A stretch of DNA of 36,190 nucleotides from the IMG/VR virus record IMGVR_UViG_3300025132_000125, positions 1 to 36,190 of that record, one strand, 5' to 3'. The translations under genes and the position numbers were made by a program. Each line of letters opens with the position of its first letter. The first letter of the stretch is position 1. The stretch comes from a virus. The notes beneath the pieces are model-generated. The model was given only the letters and a program-made list of their open reading frames with translations. It was not told the DNA's origin and made no database searches. Positions 3,417-35,666 of this stretch are shown here, in pieces.

Positions 3417-3582
3417 CGAAAAAATTCTCGGCGAAATCGTCTACCACTTGCAACTTGCTTACAACGGCACCTTGTTGGCCTTCGACCACGACATCGACGT
3501 GGCGCGTCTGGAAGACATGCTGGACGACGCCCGCGACGCCTTAACCGCTGAACGGGAGAGGCTTGATGTCTGGTCGGCGTAA
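3406..3582 (+). CDS. Small hypothetical protein (58 aa)
   Basis: 58-aa acidic, helical protein (begins MATNEKILGEIVYHLQLAYN) with an Asp/Arg-rich centre and no recognisable domain. It overlaps the stop of the upstream gene by 11 bases and the start of the nuclease gene downstream by 17 bases, filling a gap in an otherwise continuous operon. Codon use (GAC, GTC, GCC preference) matches its neighbours, which supports real coding. Function unknown. Confidence 0.65.
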   Translation: MATNEKILGEIVYHLQLAYNGTLLAFDHDIDVARLEDMLDDARDALTAERERLDVWSA

Positions 3583-3907
3583 CAAGGTCAGAGGGTACGA
3601 GCATGAGGCCCAGGTCGTTAAGCACTGGCAAAATTTGGGCGTGGATTGCAAACGGGTCTTTGCCAGTGGAGCTTATAAGGAACAGCTAGGCGATGAGCAT
3701 AAAGGCGACCTAATGCTCTCGGGTTTTGTTGTGGAATGTAAGCGCCGTAAAAACGGCGGCGGTTTTAAATTCCTCCTCGACAGTCTCGACCAAGACAACG
3801 CCGACATTTTGATATGCCGCCAGGACGGGCGACCGATACGCCGCCTATACGTCATGGAGGAAGAAACCGTCGAGGCGCTGTTCCGGCAAAGCGGCGTGAT
3901 CAAATGA
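3566..3907 (+). CDS. Holliday-junction-resolvase-like PD-(D/E)XK nuclease
   Basis: 113 aa. The arrangement is Glu in YEHEAQVV (about 11-13), R-x-x-x-SGA (about 32-37), then GDL and VVECKRR (about 47-60), followed by GFKFLLDSL. This is the PD-(D/E)XK pattern of archaeal Hjc-like and RecU-like resolvases. It would cut branched DNA during recombination or before packaging. The ATG at 3566 is preferred to an in-frame TTG at 3563 because GGGAGAGG lies at the correct distance. The end couples by ATGA to the methyltransferase gene. Confidence 0.75.
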   Translation: MSGRRNKVRGYEHEAQVVKHWQNLGVDCKRVFASGAYKEQLGDEHKGDLMLSGFVVECKRRKNGGGFKFLLDSLDQDNADILICRQDGRPIRRLYVMEEETVEALFRQSGVIK

Positions 3908-15863: not shown

Positions 15864-17908
15864 TGGATGACCAAGAATTTCACAGTCTCGTCCAGAACGA
15901 GATTGAACAGGCGGTAAACTACCACGACTCCGAATACGCCGCCGACCGCATCACGGCGCTCGACTATTACCTGGGCAACCCACTCGGCAACGAAGTCGAT
16001 GGCCGGTCACAAGTCGTGCAGACTGAGGTCGCCGACGTTGTCGAAATGATGATGCCGTCGCTGATGAAAATCTTTGCGTCGAGCGACGACTTTGTCCGTT
16101 TTGAGCCACGCGGCCCCGAAGACGTTGAGGCCGCCGCCCAGGCCAGTGACTACGTCAATTTCATTCTCAATGCCGACAACGAAGGTTTCCAAGTTCTCCA
16201 CAACTGGATTAAGGACGCCTTGCTGTTTCGCATGGGCGTCGTCAAACATTTCTACGACGAGAGCGAGTCCGTCCACGAGGATATGTATGAGGGCTTGACT
16301 GACGACGAACTGACGGCCTTGTTGGTGGACGACGACATCGAAGTTGTCGAGCAAGAGGCGCGGGAATACGGCGAAGCAATGGCGGGGCCGGACGGCGAGA
16401 TGATGCCGCCGCCGCTCGTCTTCGATGTCCGCGTCCGCAAGACGCACCGCGACGGTCGCATTAAAATCGAAAACGTCCCGCCCGAGGAATTTCTATTCTC
16501 GCAACGCGCCAAGTCGATTGAGGACGCACGGTTCGTCGCACATAGAACCGAGATGACCGTCTCCGACTTGGTGGAAATGGGATACGACCGCGACGTGGTC
16601 GAGGCCAACGCCGGTTATACCGAAGTCGATACGATGAACGAGAAGCAGTCTCGTTTTGAGAATATTGAAAGTCAGGCCGAGAACACGACGAGCGACATAT
16701 CGCAGCGCGACGTTCTGGTGACTGAGGTCTACATCAAGGCCGATTATGACGACGACGGTAAGAGTGAGACGCGCCGCGTTGTTTGTCTCGGCAGCGGTTA
16801 CGAGGTCGTCGAAAACGAGCCATATCACATGATGCCGTTCTCGGTCATCTCGCCAATCCTGATGCCGCACCGCATGGTGGGCCGGTCGGTCGCCGAATTG
16901 TTGCTCGATTTGCAGCAAGCCAAGACGGCCATCTTACGTCAGCTACTCGACAACATCTACCTAATGAACAATGCCCGCGTCGGCGCAGTCGAGGGACAAG
17001 TCAATCTCGACGATTTGATCTCCAATCGCCCCGGCGGCATCGTCCGTATGCGGGCGCCTGGGATGGTGCAACCCATCACACCGCCCAGCGTCGCCGACGC
17101 GGCATTTCCACTTTTGTCCTACATGGACAACGTGCGGGAAATGCGGACGGGCTTGTCGAAGGCGTCGATGGGCCTGGACGCCGACGCCCTGCAATCATCG
17201 ACGGCGGCAGCAGTCAGCGCGACAATCTCGGCGGCGCAAAGCAAGGTCGAAATGATTGCGCGGGTATTCGCCGAGACGGGCGTCAAGCGCCTGATGAAGT
17301 GCATTTTACAACTGGTGCAGAAACACCAACAACAACCCCGCATTATTCGGCTTCGGAATAACTTTGTCACAATGGACCCGGCGGCATGGGAAAACGAGTT
17401 CGACATCTCAGTCAACGTCGGTCTGGGCAACGGCGACGAGCAGCAACGTGGCGCCATGTTAGCCCAGGTCGCGGCGAAGCAAGAAGAAATCTTAACGAAG
17501 ATGGGCATCGACAACCCACTGACGACCCTCGGCCAGTATCGGCAGACGTTGGCGAAAATGTTGGAACACGCCGGGTTTAAGAACAGCGCCGATTTCTTCC
17601 TCGACCCGAATAATCTGCCGCCCGACGTGAAGCAGAAATTTGAGGCCAAGATGCAAATGGCGCAAGAGGGCGGCAACGATCAAGCCATTCAGCAAGCCTT
17701 GCAGTTGGAGAAGGCGAAGGCCGAGGCCGAGATTCAGATTGAACGCGAGAAGGCCAAGGCCGAGCTTGAGTTGAAACGCGAAACTGAAATGGCCGAGTTG
17801 CAAATGAAGTTCGAGCTTCGGCAGCAAGAAATGCAATATGAGGCGCAGTTGCGCGGCCTTGAGGCCGCCAGCGGCGTCGACATTTCAACCAACATTCCGA
17901 GGCAGTAG
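15863..17908 (+). CDS. Portal protein (P22-like)
   Basis: 681 aa, the size of P22-type portals. The N-terminus (FHSLVQNEIEQAVNYHDSEYA...RITALDYYLGN) and the VDGRSQVVQTEVADVVEMMMPSLMKIF segment are typical of this family in SU10/P22-like podoviruses. The Glu/Lys/Gln-rich C-terminus (about 600-665) predicts a long coiled coil like the P22 portal barrel. It forms the dodecameric ring through which DNA enters and leaves, contacting terminase and, after packaging, the adaptor at 20830. Start overlaps the upstream stop. Confidence 0.93.
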   Translation: MDDQEFHSLVQNEIEQAVNYHDSEYAADRITALDYYLGNPLGNEVDGRSQVVQTEVADVVEMMMPSLMKIFASSDDFVRFEPRGPEDVEAAAQASDYVNFILNADNEGFQVLHNWIKDALLFRMGVVKHFYDESESVHEDMYEGLTDDELTALLVDDDIEVVEQEAREYGEAMAGPDGEMMPPPLVFDVRVRKTHRDGRIKIENVPPEEFLFSQRAKSIEDARFVAHRTEMTVSDLVEMGYDRDVVEANAGYTEVDTMNEKQSRFENIESQAENTTSDISQRDVLVTEVYIKADYDDDGKSETRRVVCLGSGYEVVENEPYHMMPFSVISPILMPHRMVGRSVAELLLDLQQAKTAILRQLLDNIYLMNNARVGAVEGQVNLDDLISNRPGGIVRMRAPGMVQPITPPSVADAAFPLLSYMDNVREMRTGLSKASMGLDADALQSSTAAAVSATISAAQSKVEMIARVFAETGVKRLMKCILQLVQKHQQQPRIIRLRNNFVTMDPAAWENEFDISVNVGLGNGDEQQRGAMLAQVAAKQEEILTKMGIDNPLTTLGQYRQTLAKMLEHAGFKNSADFFLDPNNLPPDVKQKFEAKMQMAQEGGNDQAIQQALQLEKAKAEAEIQIEREKAKAELELKRETEMAELQMKFELRQQEMQYEAQLRGLEAASGVDISTNIPRQ

Positions 17909-18166
17909 ATGTCGCGCATTGAGGACGAAATCGTAAGGGGCAACAAGGCCGCCGAGGTCTTGCGTAATCCCGTCTTTGACGAGGCGTTTCAATTTCTGCA
18001 CGACCACTATTACAATGCTTGGAAGCATACAGCGACGGACGACGTTGACACCCGCGAAAGATTATTTGTCGCGATCAACGTCCTCGACGACATCCGCACC
18101 AATATCGAGTCCGTGATGAACACGGGCAAACTCGCTGGTGAGGAAGGCGGCGGCGCCGTCCACTAA
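17909..18166 (+). CDS. Hypothetical head-region protein (85 aa)
   Basis: 85-aa helical protein (FDEAFQFLHDHYYNAWKHTATDD...RERLFVAINVLDDIRTNIESV). Small proteins of this type lie between portal and scaffold in related podoviruses; function unknown to me. The ATG directly follows the portal stop, so expression is coupled. Confidence 0.7.
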   Translation: MSRIEDEIVRGNKAAEVLRNPVFDEAFQFLHDHYYNAWKHTATDDVDTRERLFVAINVLDDIRTNIESVMNTGKLAGEEGGGAVH

Positions 18167-18183
18167 TTCCGCATTTCGCGGAA
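18167..18183 (+). other. Short hairpin upstream of the scaffold gene
   Basis: TTCCGC (18167-18172) pairs with GCGGAA (18178-18183) around a 5-nt loop in the 67-base gap before the scaffold gene. No T-run follows. It may protect or process the message for the highly expressed scaffold and capsid genes. TTTTGGAGATTTAAC gives a good ribosome site before 18234. Confidence 0.4.
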
Positions 18184-18233
18184 TGACCAAGCCCGTATAG
18201 GGCAGTCGAACCTTAAAATTTTGGAGATTTAAC

Positions 18234-19259
18234 ATGGCCGAAGTAGCCCGTGACGGGACTTCTGCGATCTCGGCGGCGGATGCCGTCAATTTACTTCTAA
18301 CTGAACCAACGCCGGAAACGGATAACGCTGAGACAGTTGAGGAGCAACCGGCAGAGGAAATAGTTTCCGAGCCGGAAATCACCGAAGCCGACGAGGTGGA
18401 GGTCGAAACCGAAGCAGTCGAAGACGATGCCGAGGAAGTCGATACCGACGAAACTGAGGCAGATGATGAGACAGATTCGGAAGACGTAGTCGAAAACGTC
18501 GAACAAACTTTCCGCGTCCGAGTGGGCGATGAGGAAATCGACGTGCCGCAAGACGAGCTTATCAACTCTTACATGCGGCAGTCAGACTACACCCGCAAGA
18601 CCCAGCAAGTCGCCGAGCAACGCAAGGTTGCCGAGGCGGAACTGGATGCGGTCAAGGCAGACCGGCAACGGTACGCCGACCAGCTTCAAGTTTTGGAGCA
18701 GGCTTTAGGTCAACAAGAGCCGCCTCAAGAATATTGGGACAATCTTTATAGTGAAGACCCCTTTGAGTACACGCGGCAAAAAGACTTAGCGAGAGACCGC
18801 AAAGACGCCCTCGCACAAGTCGAAGTCGAAAAGCAGCGCGTTCAGCAAGAGCATCAAGTGCAGATGCAGCGTGAGGCTCAAGAGCATCTCATTCGAGAAA
18901 ATGAACGCATGAACGAACTGATTCCCGAGTGGCTGGATCAGGAACGTGCGGCAAAGGAAAAGACTGCCGTCGTCACCTACGCCCAGCGACAGGGATATAG
19001 CTCCGACGAACTGCAACGCCTCTCGGACGCCCGCGCCGTCAACGTACTTCGGAAAGCAATGCTCTACGACGAGTTGATGGAGAAAAAACCCGTGGCAACC
19101 AAGAAGGCAAAATCGGCCCCAAAGATGACAAAGTCTGGTCAACCAAAATCAACGAAGCAATCCAACCAGCGGCGACGGCGTGACGCCCTCGCTAGCATCA
19201 GCAAAAAGAAGGGACGCGGCGCAATGGATGCCGCCGTTAATTACCTTCTCCAAAAATAG
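18234..19259 (+). CDS. Scaffolding (capsid assembly) protein
   Basis: 341 aa. The first 90 residues are extremely acidic. Next comes a VGDEEIDVPQDELINSYMRQSDYTRK segment typical of these phage scaffolds, then a long Gln/Glu/Arg coiled coil (about 115-240). The C-terminus is Lys/Arg-rich (about 280-335) and would bind the acidic capsid interior, as in P22 scaffold. It sits immediately before the major capsid gene, the standard order. Confidence 0.85.
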   Translation: MAEVARDGTSAISAADAVNLLLTEPTPETDNAETVEEQPAEEIVSEPEITEADEVEVETEAVEDDAEEVDTDETEADDETDSEDVVENVEQTFRVRVGDEEIDVPQDELINSYMRQSDYTRKTQQVAEQRKVAEAELDAVKADRQRYADQLQVLEQALGQQEPPQEYWDNLYSEDPFEYTRQKDLARDRKDALAQVEVEKQRVQQEHQVQMQREAQEHLIRENERMNELIPEWLDQERAAKEKTAVVTYAQRQGYSSDELQRLSDARAVNVLRKAMLYDELMEKKPVATKKAKSAPKMTKSGQPKSTKQSNQRRRRDALASISKKKGRGAMDAAVNYLLQK

Positions 19260-19268
19260 GAGGCCACA

Positions 19269-20460
19269 TTGGCTACTTATACATCAAGCACAGCCATCGG
19301 TGAGCGTGAAGACCTCTCCGATGTCATTAGTCGGATCGACCCCGACGAAACGCCTCTTTTCAGCAACGCTGCAAAAGAGACGACGAAGGGAATATTTCAC
19401 GAGTTCCAAGTTCAGGAATTGACGGCGGCTGCAGACGATAACTACGTCAATGAGGGCGCCGACTATTCCTACGTCAATCCGACGGTAACGACCAGACTCG
19501 GCAACTACCACCAAATCTCGGTGCAAGCCGCGTCCGTATCGAACACCTTGGACGTGGTTGACAAGGCCGGTCGTGACAAGGAAACGGCTTACGTCAAAGT
19601 CCTCAAGGGCATTGAGCAACGCCGCGACATTGAAAAGTCCCTGTTCAAGAACGAAGCCCGCTCGGCTTCTGATCCGCGTAAGGCCGCAAAGTTCCTTTCA
19701 TGGATCACCAACGTCGTGGTCGAGTCCGGTTCTTCCGCCGCCACTGGCGACGGTTCCGACGCGGCAACGATGTCCGGCACAAACGACGCCCTGGCGTTGG
19801 CCGACATCGACGACGCAATGAAGGCGGCTTATACTGACGGCGGCCAGCCGGATATGCTTGTCGTCTCGCCAGCCAACAAGGTTGCGTTCTCTGATCTGTC
19901 CTCGGGCAGCGCAGTGACGAACCAGTTGCACATGACGGCAAACGCGCCAACCGATGCAATCATCATCGGGAGCGTGTCGATGTACCTTACGGATCAAATT
20001 CACTAAGCCGAGGTCCGTATAAAACTGCGTGAATTGCTGGAAGCCTAAACCGAAAGGCAAGGTAATCAGCATCCAAGCCAGCCAGGAATGGTTGGAAGGT
20101 TCAGAGACTAGGTCACACAGTCCCGACCGGACGATGAAGGCCCACGAGCGCGCAGCACCCTCAAGGGTGATGATATAGTCCGCCACCCGGTTAAAGCCGG
20201 GAGCGAGGATAAAGAGCCTCGCAAAGAACTGAAAGTTCGGCACCCTCAACGTCGTCATTGATCGTCAGGCCACGAATACGGAAATCCTGTTGATCGACTC
20301 CGACTACTACAGCATCGGCCATCTTCCCGGTCGTATGTTCTCGGTCAGCGACGTGGCCGCCACTGGTGATGCGACTAAGTTCGCAATCGTCAGTGAGTGG
20401 ACTCTGATCGTCAAAGCACCAAAGGCTCACGCCGCAGTGTTCGATCTCTCCACGTCATAA
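19269..20460 (+). CDS. Major capsid protein (SU10-like), gene split by a group I intron
   Basis: 316-aa capsid protein when exon 1 (19269-19994, 242 codons) is joined to exon 2 (20236-20460, 74 codons plus stop). The start is a TTG with GGAGG upstream. The product resembles the SU10/DUF5309 major capsid family: RIDPDETPLFSNA, QVQELTAAADDNY, a DIDDAMKAAYTDGG-type segment and LVVSPANKVAFSDL. Splicing creates YLTD-FGTLNVV, the D-F-G-T-L motif this family has at this point. Without splicing, the frame adds only Gln-Ile-His and stops at 20004-20006, giving a 245-aa fragment, and exon 2 has no start or ribosome site of its own. Codon use is the same in both exons. Confidence 0.93.
19995..20235 (+). 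ncRNA. Group I self-splicing intron in the capsid gene
   Basis: 241-nt intron. P1: exon end TACGGAT (19988-19994) pairs with internal guide GTCCGTA (20013-20019), the required U-G at the 5' splice site included. P10: exon 2 start TTCGGC (20236-20241) pairs with GCCGAG (20007-20012) directly before the guide. Core: P element AATTGCTGG (20032-20040), Q AATCAGC (20064-20070), R GTTCAGAGACTA (20099-20110), S GATATAGTCC (20172-20181). P4 is GCTG/CAGC, P5 is GCCT/AGGC, P3 is 20025-20031 with 20114-20120 (one mismatch), P7 is GACTA/TAGTC. Two 3' hairpins (20186-20201, 20203-20222) are P9-type. The last base is G, as required. No homing-endonuclease gene is inside. All classical hallmarks are visible. 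Confidence 0.95.
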
Positions 20461-20474
20461 TATCGGAAAAGCGA

Positions 20475-20505
20475 GGGGAGGGCTTCGGCTCTCCCCAAAC
20501 TTTTA
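20475..20505 (+). terminator. Terminator-like hairpin with TTCG loop after the capsid gene
   Basis: GGGGAGGGC (20475-20483) pairs with GCTCTCCCC (20488-20496), 9 bp with one G-T, closed by a TTCG tetraloop. CTTTT follows after AAA. The short T-run suggests partial termination, lowering tail-gene expression relative to capsid, or a 3' stabilising structure. It lies in the 55-base gap between capsid and next gene. Confidence 0.65.
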
Positions 20506-20515
20506 AGAGGTGTCA

Positions 20516-20830
20516 ATGAAACTCAAACTTTCCGAAGCCCCCGGCAAGCAGACTTATATGCACTTCAATGGCGACGAGAAGACCGTCGTCACTGAGCAGA
20601 CGGTCGATCCGATTATTGAGGCAAACAAGCGCCTCGCAAATGATTGGCGTTACGGGAACTTGATTGGAAACACCCAACGGCACCAGCAAAAGGTCGCCGA
20701 GATTCCAAGTGTTCTGTATTACGAGCTTGTCAAAAAATTGGGCGACCCCAAGCATAATTTGAAGGCATGGAAACGGTGGTTGAACGACCCCGAAAATAGT
20801 GCGTTCAAGACCATTGGCGGCACAGTCTGA
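20516..20830 (+). CDS. Hypothetical structural-region protein (104 aa)
   Basis: 104 aa (begins MKLKLSEAPGKQTYMHFNG). The ATG at 20516 has AAGAGG at the correct spacing; an in-frame GTG at 20510 is less likely. The C-terminus (VLYYELVKKLGDPKHNLKAWKRWLNDPENSAFKTIGG) is a pattern found in several marine podovirus proteins next to the capsid gene. Function is not known to me, perhaps capsid-associated. Overlaps the adaptor start (TGATG). Confidence 0.75.
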   Translation: MKLKLSEAPGKQTYMHFNGDEKTVVTEQTVDPIIEANKRLANDWRYGNLIGNTQRHQQKVAEIPSVLYYELVKKLGDPKHNLKAWKRWLNDPENSAFKTIGGTV

Positions 20831-21459
20831 TGGCGATCTCGACGTATACGGAATTGCAGACGGCGGTCGACAATTGGCTGGCGCGAACTGATCTCGCCGG
20901 TCGGTCGCCCGAGTTCATTACGATGGCCGAGGCACGGATGAACCGCGAGTTGGAGACGCGCAGTCAAGAAAAGCGCGTCACGGCGACGCTGGCGGCAGAC
21001 GACGCCTATGTGTCACTGCCAACCGATATGCGGCGCATCCGGCAAGTGCGGCTGAATACGTCACCGACGACAACTCTGATCTACTACACGCCCAACGCCA
21101 TTGACCAAAAGTATCCCAGTGCCGGAACCGGCAAGCCGGTCGCCTATTCTATTCTTGGCACTGAGATTTATTTACGTCCCACGCCGGACACGACCTACAC
21201 GGCAGAGATCGCTTACGTTGCCGACATTGATGCCCTGGACGGCGACACGGCGACGAACACGATTCTACAGCGTCACCCCGACGCATATCTGCATGGCGCC
21301 CTGGCGGAAGCCTTCGGCTACCTGATGGATGAGACGCGCCAAGCGAAGCACGACACTTTATTTACTCGCGCAATTTCTGAAATAAAGGCCGACGAAGAAC
21401 GCGCAATCTACGGCGGCGGTACATTAACAGTATCCAGCGACTACGGAGAAGTCACATGA
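20830..21459 (+). CDS. Head-tail adaptor (SU10/P22 gp4-like)
   Basis: 209 aa. The N-terminus STYTELQTAVDNWLARTDL...FITMAEARMNRELE and the following YVSLPTDMRRIRQVRLN are the pattern of phage adaptor proteins that bind below the portal ring. Later IYLRPTPDTTYTAEIAYVADIDAL is also typical. It would close the portal after packaging and dock the tail hub (22524). Its position after capsid fits. Coupled at both ends. Confidence 0.85.
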   Translation: MAISTYTELQTAVDNWLARTDLAGRSPEFITMAEARMNRELETRSQEKRVTATLAADDAYVSLPTDMRRIRQVRLNTSPTTTLIYYTPNAIDQKYPSAGTGKPVAYSILGTEIYLRPTPDTTYTAEIAYVADIDALDGDTATNTILQRHPDAYLHGALAEAFGYLMDETRQAKHDTLFTRAISEIKADEERAIYGGGTLTVSSDYGEVT

Positions 21460-21842
21460 GCGCCATGAGCGATTATTTGGAGAATGAAGTTCTCGACCAC
21501 ATTCTCGGCACGGGCGCCTATACCATGCCGTCGAATGTCTACATCGGATTGTCCACGGGCAGTTTCAGCGACGACAACTCCGGCACCGAATTGAGCGGCA
21601 GCGGATACGCACGTCAGGCAATAACATTCGCGGCGGCGTCAAGCGCAAGTGCGGCGACCAACGCGACTGTCACATTCCCGACGGCGACCGGGTCGTGGGG
21701 CGCCGTGTCGCATTGGGGTTTGTTCGACGCAAGCTCTAGCGGCAACCTTCTGATCCACGGCGCGTTTGCGTCGTCGAAGACGATTGCCAGCGGCGACGTT
21801 CTCCGCGTTAACAGCGGCGACCTGACGGTGACGGCGGCCTAA
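21456..21842 (+). CDS. Virion protein with tail-fibre/decoration beta-sandwich (Gp80-like)
   Basis: 128 aa. The pattern YLENEVLDHILG...VYIGLSTGSF...GTELSGSGYARQAITF...TFPTATGSWGAVSHWGLFDA...LLIHGAFASSKTIASGDVLRVNSGDLTV matches a widespread single-domain phage structural protein (Gp80-like) that I know from many Caudovirales virions. Probably a capsid or tail decoration, or the base of a fibre. ATGA overlap with the adaptor gene. Confidence 0.75.
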   Translation: MSAMSDYLENEVLDHILGTGAYTMPSNVYIGLSTGSFSDDNSGTELSGSGYARQAITFAAASSASAATNATVTFPTATGSWGAVSHWGLFDASSSGNLLIHGAFASSKTIASGDVLRVNSGDLTVTAA

Positions 21843-21843
21843 C

Positions 21844-22527
21844 ATGGTCGAAGTCGTCGGCCCAAATCTCGACCAATTAGACAGTTGGTCGTCGAGCATC
21901 GACGCACTTCCTTATTCGCTCGACAATTCGATCTGGGACACGGCGGCAATTCGGGAAGTTGCAAACTACCGCAACAATCCGACGCTTGAACAACTTGACG
22001 CGCTTTCGAGCAGCATCGACGCGCTTAGTACGTCACTCGACAGTCTGACGAGTTTCGGCACTCCCGCCGCCATCACCGTGACGGCGACGGCGACGCCGGG
22101 CGTCACACTTTCGGCCAGCGGTACGGCGGCGGTCGCGGTGACGGTAAGCGCCTCGGCGTCGCGGGTCCAATCGGCAAGTGCCACGGCGGCGGTCGCGGTC
22201 ACGGCGTCGGCGAGTTTCGATCTGATTGAAAGCGTCAGCGGCAGCGCAGCGATTGCGGTGACGGTCAACTCACCGTCGGCGCTGATGGTTTACGACGGCG
22301 CGGCGAGTGCGTCGTTTGCGATTACAGCAAGCGCCACGGCGGCACTTGTTGCCGGTGCCAGCGGCACGGCGGCAATGGCCCTCACAGTCGCGGCAGACAA
22401 TGAGAAACTTGGCGAGGCGTGGTCGGAGGTATCGGCCGGCGGGGCGACGTGGTCGGAGGTATCGGCCGGCGGGGAGACTTGGACGCAAGTATCCAGCGGC
22501 AATGAAACTTGGAGCTTGGCGGCATGA
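21844..22527 (+). CDS. Repetitive Ala/Thr/Val-rich virion protein
   Basis: 227 aa in three parts. The N-terminus (about 1-75) carries two copies of an L-D-Q-L-D-x-x-S-S-S-I-D-A-L motif. About 76-195 is a series of beta-type repeats of about 30-35 residues with the core SG(T/S)AA(V/I)AVTV. The C-terminus has short Trp repeats (WSEVSAGG.TW). It resembles repetitive tail-associated proteins of podoviruses and is probably surface-exposed or links tail parts. The ATGA overlap with the tail-hub gene suggests they act together. No named family. Confidence 0.65.
   Translation: MVEVVGPNLDQLDSWSSSIDALPYSLDNSIWDTAAIREVANYRNNPTLEQLDALSSSIDALSTSLDSLTSFGTPAAITVTATATPGVTLSASGTAAVAVTVSASASRVQSASATAAVAVTASASFDLIESVSGSAAIAVTVNSPSALMVYDGAASASFAITASATAALVAGASGTAAMALTVAADNEKLGEAWSEVSAGGATWSEVSAGGETWTQVSSGNETWSLAA
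22418..22474 (+). repeat. Tandem 30-bp repeat in the coding sequence
   Basis: A 27-base unit at 22418-22444 recurs unchanged at 22448-22474 (period 30 bp, 10 codons), with a third, diverged copy at about 22478-22504. It encodes the Trp-Ser-Glu-Val-Ser-Ala-Gly-Gly repeats at the C-terminus of the 21844 gene. Two identical copies point to a recent duplication and possible length variation. Confidence 0.9.
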
Positions 22528-35578: not shown

Positions 35579-35614
35579 TAAGTGGCTGTAATAGTTAGAC
35601 TTTATTTGGCATGT

Positions 35615-35666
35615 TGTCAGGCTCATAACCTGAAGGTCGTAGGTTCAAATCCTACCCCCGCAACCA
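35615..35666 (+). tRNA. 3' half of initiator tRNA-Met (attachment core, not a full gene)
   Basis: From 35617: anticodon stem TCAGG/CCTGA with loop CTCATAA (anticodon CAT), variable loop, T-arm GTAGG-TTCAAAT-CCTAC and CCCCGCAACCA. This is the 3' half of a bacterial initiator tRNA. The 5' acceptor strand and D-arm are missing; the bases before 35615 do not fit. Integration at the host gene would swap this half for the host's own, keeping the tRNA intact. Host attB is therefore the initiator tRNA-Met gene. Confidence 0.88.

Follow-up and report, generated by a model that had tools for sequence, protein, structure and literature searches.

A group I intron without an encoded endonuclease in the SU10-type capsid gene of a phage, probably one of a set that repeatedly invaded this gene

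How might an intact capsid protein be made from a gene whose reading frame is broken by a stop codon and resumes well downstream? In the window analysed here, by which we mean the whole 36,190 nucleotides of IMG/VR record IMGVR_UViG_3300025132_000125, the SU10-type major capsid gene occupies 19269-20460 on the plus strand; its frame runs from a TTG start codon at 19269 to a TAA at 20004-20006, and resumes at 20236 to terminate at 20458-20460. Exon 1 (19269-19994, residues 1-242) and exon 2 (20236-20460, residues 243-316 and the stop codon) match positions 3-219 and 223-291 of the Pfam profile SU10_MCP (PF17236, length 292), with scores of 161 and 59.2 bits against a threshold of 24.1, and positions 9-235 and 238-308 of phrog_1328 (PHROG 1328, major head protein), both profiles resuming in exon 2 at the adjoining position. 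The continuity of the PF17236 match across the junction places the gene in the SU10 type, exon 1 aligns with its relatives, and a solved capsid chain, 9ny2, aligns to residues 6-311 of the capsid family profile. Joining 19994 to 20236 yields a 316-residue protein that reads YLTDFGTLNVV at the junction, the same as in intronless relatives, and D242, F243 and G244 are invariant in a 16-row capsid alignment. The predicted spliced junction is ..CTTACGGAT joined to TTCGGCACC..

The 241 nucleotides that separate the exons (19995-20235, plus strand) have the anatomy of a group I intron. With the Rfam model RF00028, whose gathering score is 50, the only group I match in the window spans 19963-20202 and scores 70.5 bits (E 4e-16). 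P1 pairs UACGGAU at the end of exon 1 (19988-19994), with U at the 5′ splice site, to the internal guide sequence GUCCGUA (20013-20019), forming 7 bp that include the U.G pair; the same exon bases occur in L289, a diverged phage discussed below. Directly 5′ of the guide lies GCCGAG (20007-20012), the intron side of a 6-bp P10 with the first bases of exon 2, UUCGGC (20236-20241), and the last base of the intron is G20235. P1 with its U.G pair, P10 and the terminal G all predict the same junctions, and these restore the conserved protein. The in-frame UAA at 20004-20006, which is 12 nt inside the intron, falls in the loop of P1. The P1/P2 placement offered by the Rfam alignment from 19963 is not the true P1, which was located through its exon pairing, and in the minimum-energy fold a GAAC/GUUC hairpin spans the 3′ splice site and might compete with P10.

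The core of the ribozyme is supported by covariation among 22 related introns. P3 (CUGCGUG, 20025-20031, with CGCGCAG, 20149-20155) and P4 (UGCUGG, 20035-20040, with UCAGCA, 20066-20071) are paired in every sequence (100%), with both partners changed in five of seven and three of six pairs, respectively, as they are in four of the five pairs of the P8 hairpin CACCC-UCAA-GGGUG (20156-20169). P7, formed by GACUA in the R element (20106-20110) and UAGUC in the S element (20176-20180), covaries in 5 of the 22 introns through the combinations GACUA/UAGUC, GAUCA/UGAUC and GACCA/UGGUC. Across the 30 core pairs, which comprise P3 to P8 with the P3/P7 pseudoknot, 98.8% of alignment cells are paired and 134 are double-changed; slid partners pair in only 30-42% and shuffles average 39 double-changed cells, so that covariation in the core exceeds every shuffle and every slide. 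The RNAalifold consensus placed one P7 strand in a local hairpin, and was replaced by the P3/P7 pseudoknot that all 22 sequences support. The element combines a covariance score above the curated cut-off, a P3-P8 core with P, Q, R and S elements, the U.G pair of P1, a terminal G and P10. The longest stop-free stretches in the intron are 51 codons on the plus strand and 80 on the minus strand, and neither strand holds an endonuclease reading frame.

A natural empty allele marks the boundaries independently. A close relative of the phage, L002, is 94% identical in DNA over window positions 16810-22366 and is without exactly these 241 nucleotides; chance is ruled out by this allele together with the covariation of the core. 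Within the 36 nt upstream of the site the two phages differ at four positions only, -9, -7, -4 and -1, all synonymous, and within the 36 nt downstream at the last base alone. L289 shares the window's bases at all four of the upstream positions and carries the same 241-nt intron, 90.9% identical to that of the window, in a gene whose exon DNA is 72.9% identical. A likely reading, we infer, is that the window's intron was donated by a phage resembling L289 and brought along some 9-10 nt of the exon upstream of it. The initial annotation had proposed, from the nucleotides alone, an intron without an endonuclease at 19995-20235, bounded by a 7-bp P1 with U-G at the splice site and a 6-bp P10, in an SU10-like capsid gene whose joined exons restore DFGTL. 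Each of these particulars stands: the covariance model that it suggested as a check recognizes the element, the homologues that it suggested aligning read as expected across the junction, and the coordinates agree with RF00028, the P1 and P10 pairings, the restored frame and the empty allele.

The window's intron is not an isolated case but one of many in this capsid family. Relatives of the capsid were fetched by protein and then checked for inserts, and 33 records, two of them the window's own phage, carry inserts in an SU10-type capsid gene. One of these is the named phage C72C1; except for C72C1 and one bacterial metagenome-assembled genome (MAG), all are viral metagenome contigs. A scan of 32 of the 33 records with RF00028 gave 36 matches, of which 35 exceed the curated score and one reaches 49.5 bits. 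Junctions were placed by requiring an exon that ends in U, a U.G pair in P1, a final G and restoration of frame and protein, and this rule restores the family protein at each of 13 distinct sites (capsid nucleotides 68, 143, 162, 175, 228, 230, 238, 303, 322, 344, 354, 707 and 726, the last being that of the window). The junctions of L389 and L391 were placed by hand against the empty allele L378, the position in L393 is approximate, and a reading of L068 that lacked the terminal G was rejected in favor of one that ends the intron in G. The introns are 210-285 nt long, and every intron of the family has an in-frame stop 3-44 nt past its 5′ splice site. Four genes carry two introns each: L315 (68 and 228), L277 (143 and 238), L364 (228 and 354) and L367 (303 and 344). 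With both removed, L315 encodes a protein that matches those of the intronless L305, L087 and L306 residue for residue, and the joined exons of L389 agree with L378 throughout the 36 nt that flank the junction on each side. The sites fall in stretches more conserved than random positions (mean 0.852 vs 0.772, p ~0.0003). Among individual loci, L367:380-937 has its two introns split by a 41-nt exon, the second being the 49.5-bit match just below the Rfam cut-off; in L392:1369-1469 the site-707 intron follows an exon 1 about 17 codons shorter than in relatives; and the MAG contig, L082 (PBOZ01000018.1), comes from the Red Sea and is binned as Rickettsiales, a possible hint at the host of this lineage.

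Within the records scanned the introns are confined to the capsid gene. All 36 RF00028 matches in the 32 intron-bearing records lie within it; 50 large relatives whose capsid genes are intact show no group I match at all, nor do 19 more relatives or L002; and the capsid gene makes up less than 3% of such a genome. Because the capsid gene served as the bait for fetching loci, and because many loci are fragments, the counts are biased and give no estimate of the share of capsid genes that bear introns; this bias does not explain why the other genes of the scanned records are free of introns.

Taken together, the observations make it highly probable that the window holds a canonical group I intron without an endonuclease in the SU10-type capsid gene of a temperate phage, that this intron is predicted to splice and was probably acquired laterally, and that it is a member of a set of small introns for which this one gene of related phages has been a repeated target of invasion. 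Most likely the intron would fold in the late transcript, use free guanosine for a cut after U19994 and, aided by P10, join 19994 to 20236 to give the 316-residue protein. The stop codon in the P1 loop would halt ribosomes ahead of the ribozyme core, as is generally understood for phage introns, and the intron would have arrived, with its few nucleotides of exon, probably from a phage like L289. That the phage is probably temperate, with a tRNA attachment site, is suggested by an integrase gene (264-1352) at one end of the record and a tRNA-like stretch (35596-35655) at the other, which scores 31.2 bits with the Rfam tRNA model (model positions 8-63) and is not reported by ARAGORN. Elsewhere in the record, three tandem 30-nt repeats, 70-90% alike, lie at 22411-22500 near the end of an ORF at 21844-22527.

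The same integrase and tRNA-like end could belong to a dead prophage in which a degenerate intron no longer splices and a truncated capsid is the only product. We consider this very improbable: the core pairs, P1, P10 and the terminal G are all intact, exon 2 is open and conserved, the surrounding structural genes are open, and an identical contig (L025) exists. An assembly artefact or chimera, conceivable for a metagenomic contig, can be dismissed almost entirely, given that inserts of the same kind occur both in C72C1, whose deposited genome is complete, and in independent contigs, and that these inserts are ribozymes with exact empty alleles.

If the window's intron is a functional member of such a set, how do its members spread? 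Introns at the same site are far more alike than the genes that hold them (99.5% vs 79.6% for L068 and L315, 97.3% vs 78.0% for L315 and L364, and 82.7% vs 63.4% for L389 and L075), and comparison of the aligned sequences therefore demonstrates movement between phages. The transfers carried flanking exon with them in short tracts of about 6-45 nt (-9 to -1 at site 726, -3/-1/+3 at site 228, and about 45 nt at site 68), and no intron was found to supply an endonuclease of its own. Close relatives also occur at different sites: the introns of L247 (site 175) and L277 (site 238), both preceded by GAACU, are 86% identical in exons that are 69% identical, and those of L272 (site 230) and L285 (site 162) are 83% identical in exons that are 68% identical. 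From such pairs we infer that introns have also jumped to new sites.

Homing by a trans-acting endonuclease encoded elsewhere, in another phage or in the host, stands about an even chance of being the route. It fits the exon bases carried over at sites 726, 228 and 68, and free-standing endonucleases are an established means of collaborative homing among T4-like phages (PMC3984707). On the other hand, a scan confined to the domains HNH, HNH_3, GIY-YIG and LAGLIDADG_1 found none of them in the window record or in the other phage records scanned, many of which are fragments and may hold nucleases of other types (PD-(D/E)XK, EDxHD or Endo VII-like), and such an enzyme alone leaves the close relatives at different sites unexplained. 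Among ten ORFs of the window scanned against Pfam, the only nuclease-like candidate is a 114-aa ORF at 3563-3907 with a sub-threshold match (23.9 vs 27 bits) to PF24608, a phage PD-(D/E)XK endonuclease family.

Reverse splicing into the abundant capsid mRNA, followed by reverse transcription and recombination, could account both for spread and for jumps, and would draw on the kinship of the L247 and L277 introns with their common GAACU target, on the confinement of group I matches to the gene of one abundant transcript, and on the lack of exon change at site 68 of L389 relative to the empty L378. We nevertheless judge it rather unlikely, and mark it down as the sole route since L002 and L305, which hold the nearest empty alleles at sites 726 and 228, respectively, do not have the U required at -1; the relatives at different sites could also stem from older ectopic DNA events, and reverse-splicing mobility has circumstantial support only, from rDNA introns (reviewed in PMC3984707). 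A broader reading, which we hold only tentatively, is that the capsid gene is a niche in which small introns without endonucleases are actively spreading and hopping, leaving a footprint of few bases, by reverse splicing or with a trans-acting factor of relaxed specificity, a route that goes beyond what has been demonstrated for phages. With alleles that have and lack introns, recent transfers, two-intron genes and relatives at different sites all in the capsid gene of one lineage, the movement of introns without endonucleases becomes directly testable, and these phages offer a natural test case for how small introns move.

The set also bears on annotation and on phage biology. Gene callers report intron-split capsids as broken pieces, and a hallmark phage gene is therefore mis-annotated or missed. 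In the deposited genome of C72C1 the split capsid gene (L158:4001-5202) is annotated as two 'major head protein' CDS, and the record has three minus-strand hypothetical ORFs in or beside the intron. In the window a 186-aa minus-strand ORF at 19698-20258 overlaps the intron and both capsid exons; it is probably spurious and a potential trap for gene callers. If the predicted anatomy operates as drawn, the most abundant late protein of these phages would depend on splicing by a ribozyme.

The initial annotation had regarded an intron without an endonuclease in an SU10-like capsid gene as not commonly described. For mycobacteriophage LittleE of Cluster J, a major capsid gene with an intron, probably of group I, has already been published, its splicing established by RT-PCR and N-terminal sequencing, and the same paper points to one in the capsid gene of lactococcal phage Tuc2009 (PMC3706429). 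In the open-access literature we found no capsid intron in SU10-like or marine phages, and no description of a many-site invasion, confined to the capsid gene, by introns without endonucleases. As in the window, exon 1 of LittleE ends in U and its intron in G; however, that intron is 819 bp long with an endonuclease ORF, interrupts an unrelated HK97-like capsid gene and is a single case, whereas here a 241-nt element without an ORF has counterparts at many sites. The intron in the minor tail gene of BAKA and Optimus is likewise a small (265 bp), spliced group I intron in a virion gene, but that gene is a tail gene and recurrence at many sites was not shown (PMC3706429). Jug phages carry introns of about 206 nt in essential genes, with splicing backed by metatranscriptomes; but a genome holds about 18 of them, distributed among numerous genes, along with many free-standing endonucleases (PMC12363816), whereas here the capsid gene alone is hit. 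The introns themselves have kin in other phage genes: over 91 nt, the core of the window's intron shares 74% identity with introns in DNA polymerase genes of phages; the L315 intron at site 228 shares 72% with an intron at the thymidylate synthase gene of a Vibrio phage; and introns of Bacillus and Staphylococcus phages are related to further members of the set. The polymerase and synthase introns differ in that their host genes serve DNA metabolism and some hold HNH ORFs. C72C1 (OQ984150.1) also has an SU10-type capsid gene, interrupted by a group I intron of 251 nt (81.8 bits) at site 322 rather than the window's 726. A single group I intron in a phage capsid gene is thus already known from LittleE, and the larger finding is the many-site pattern.
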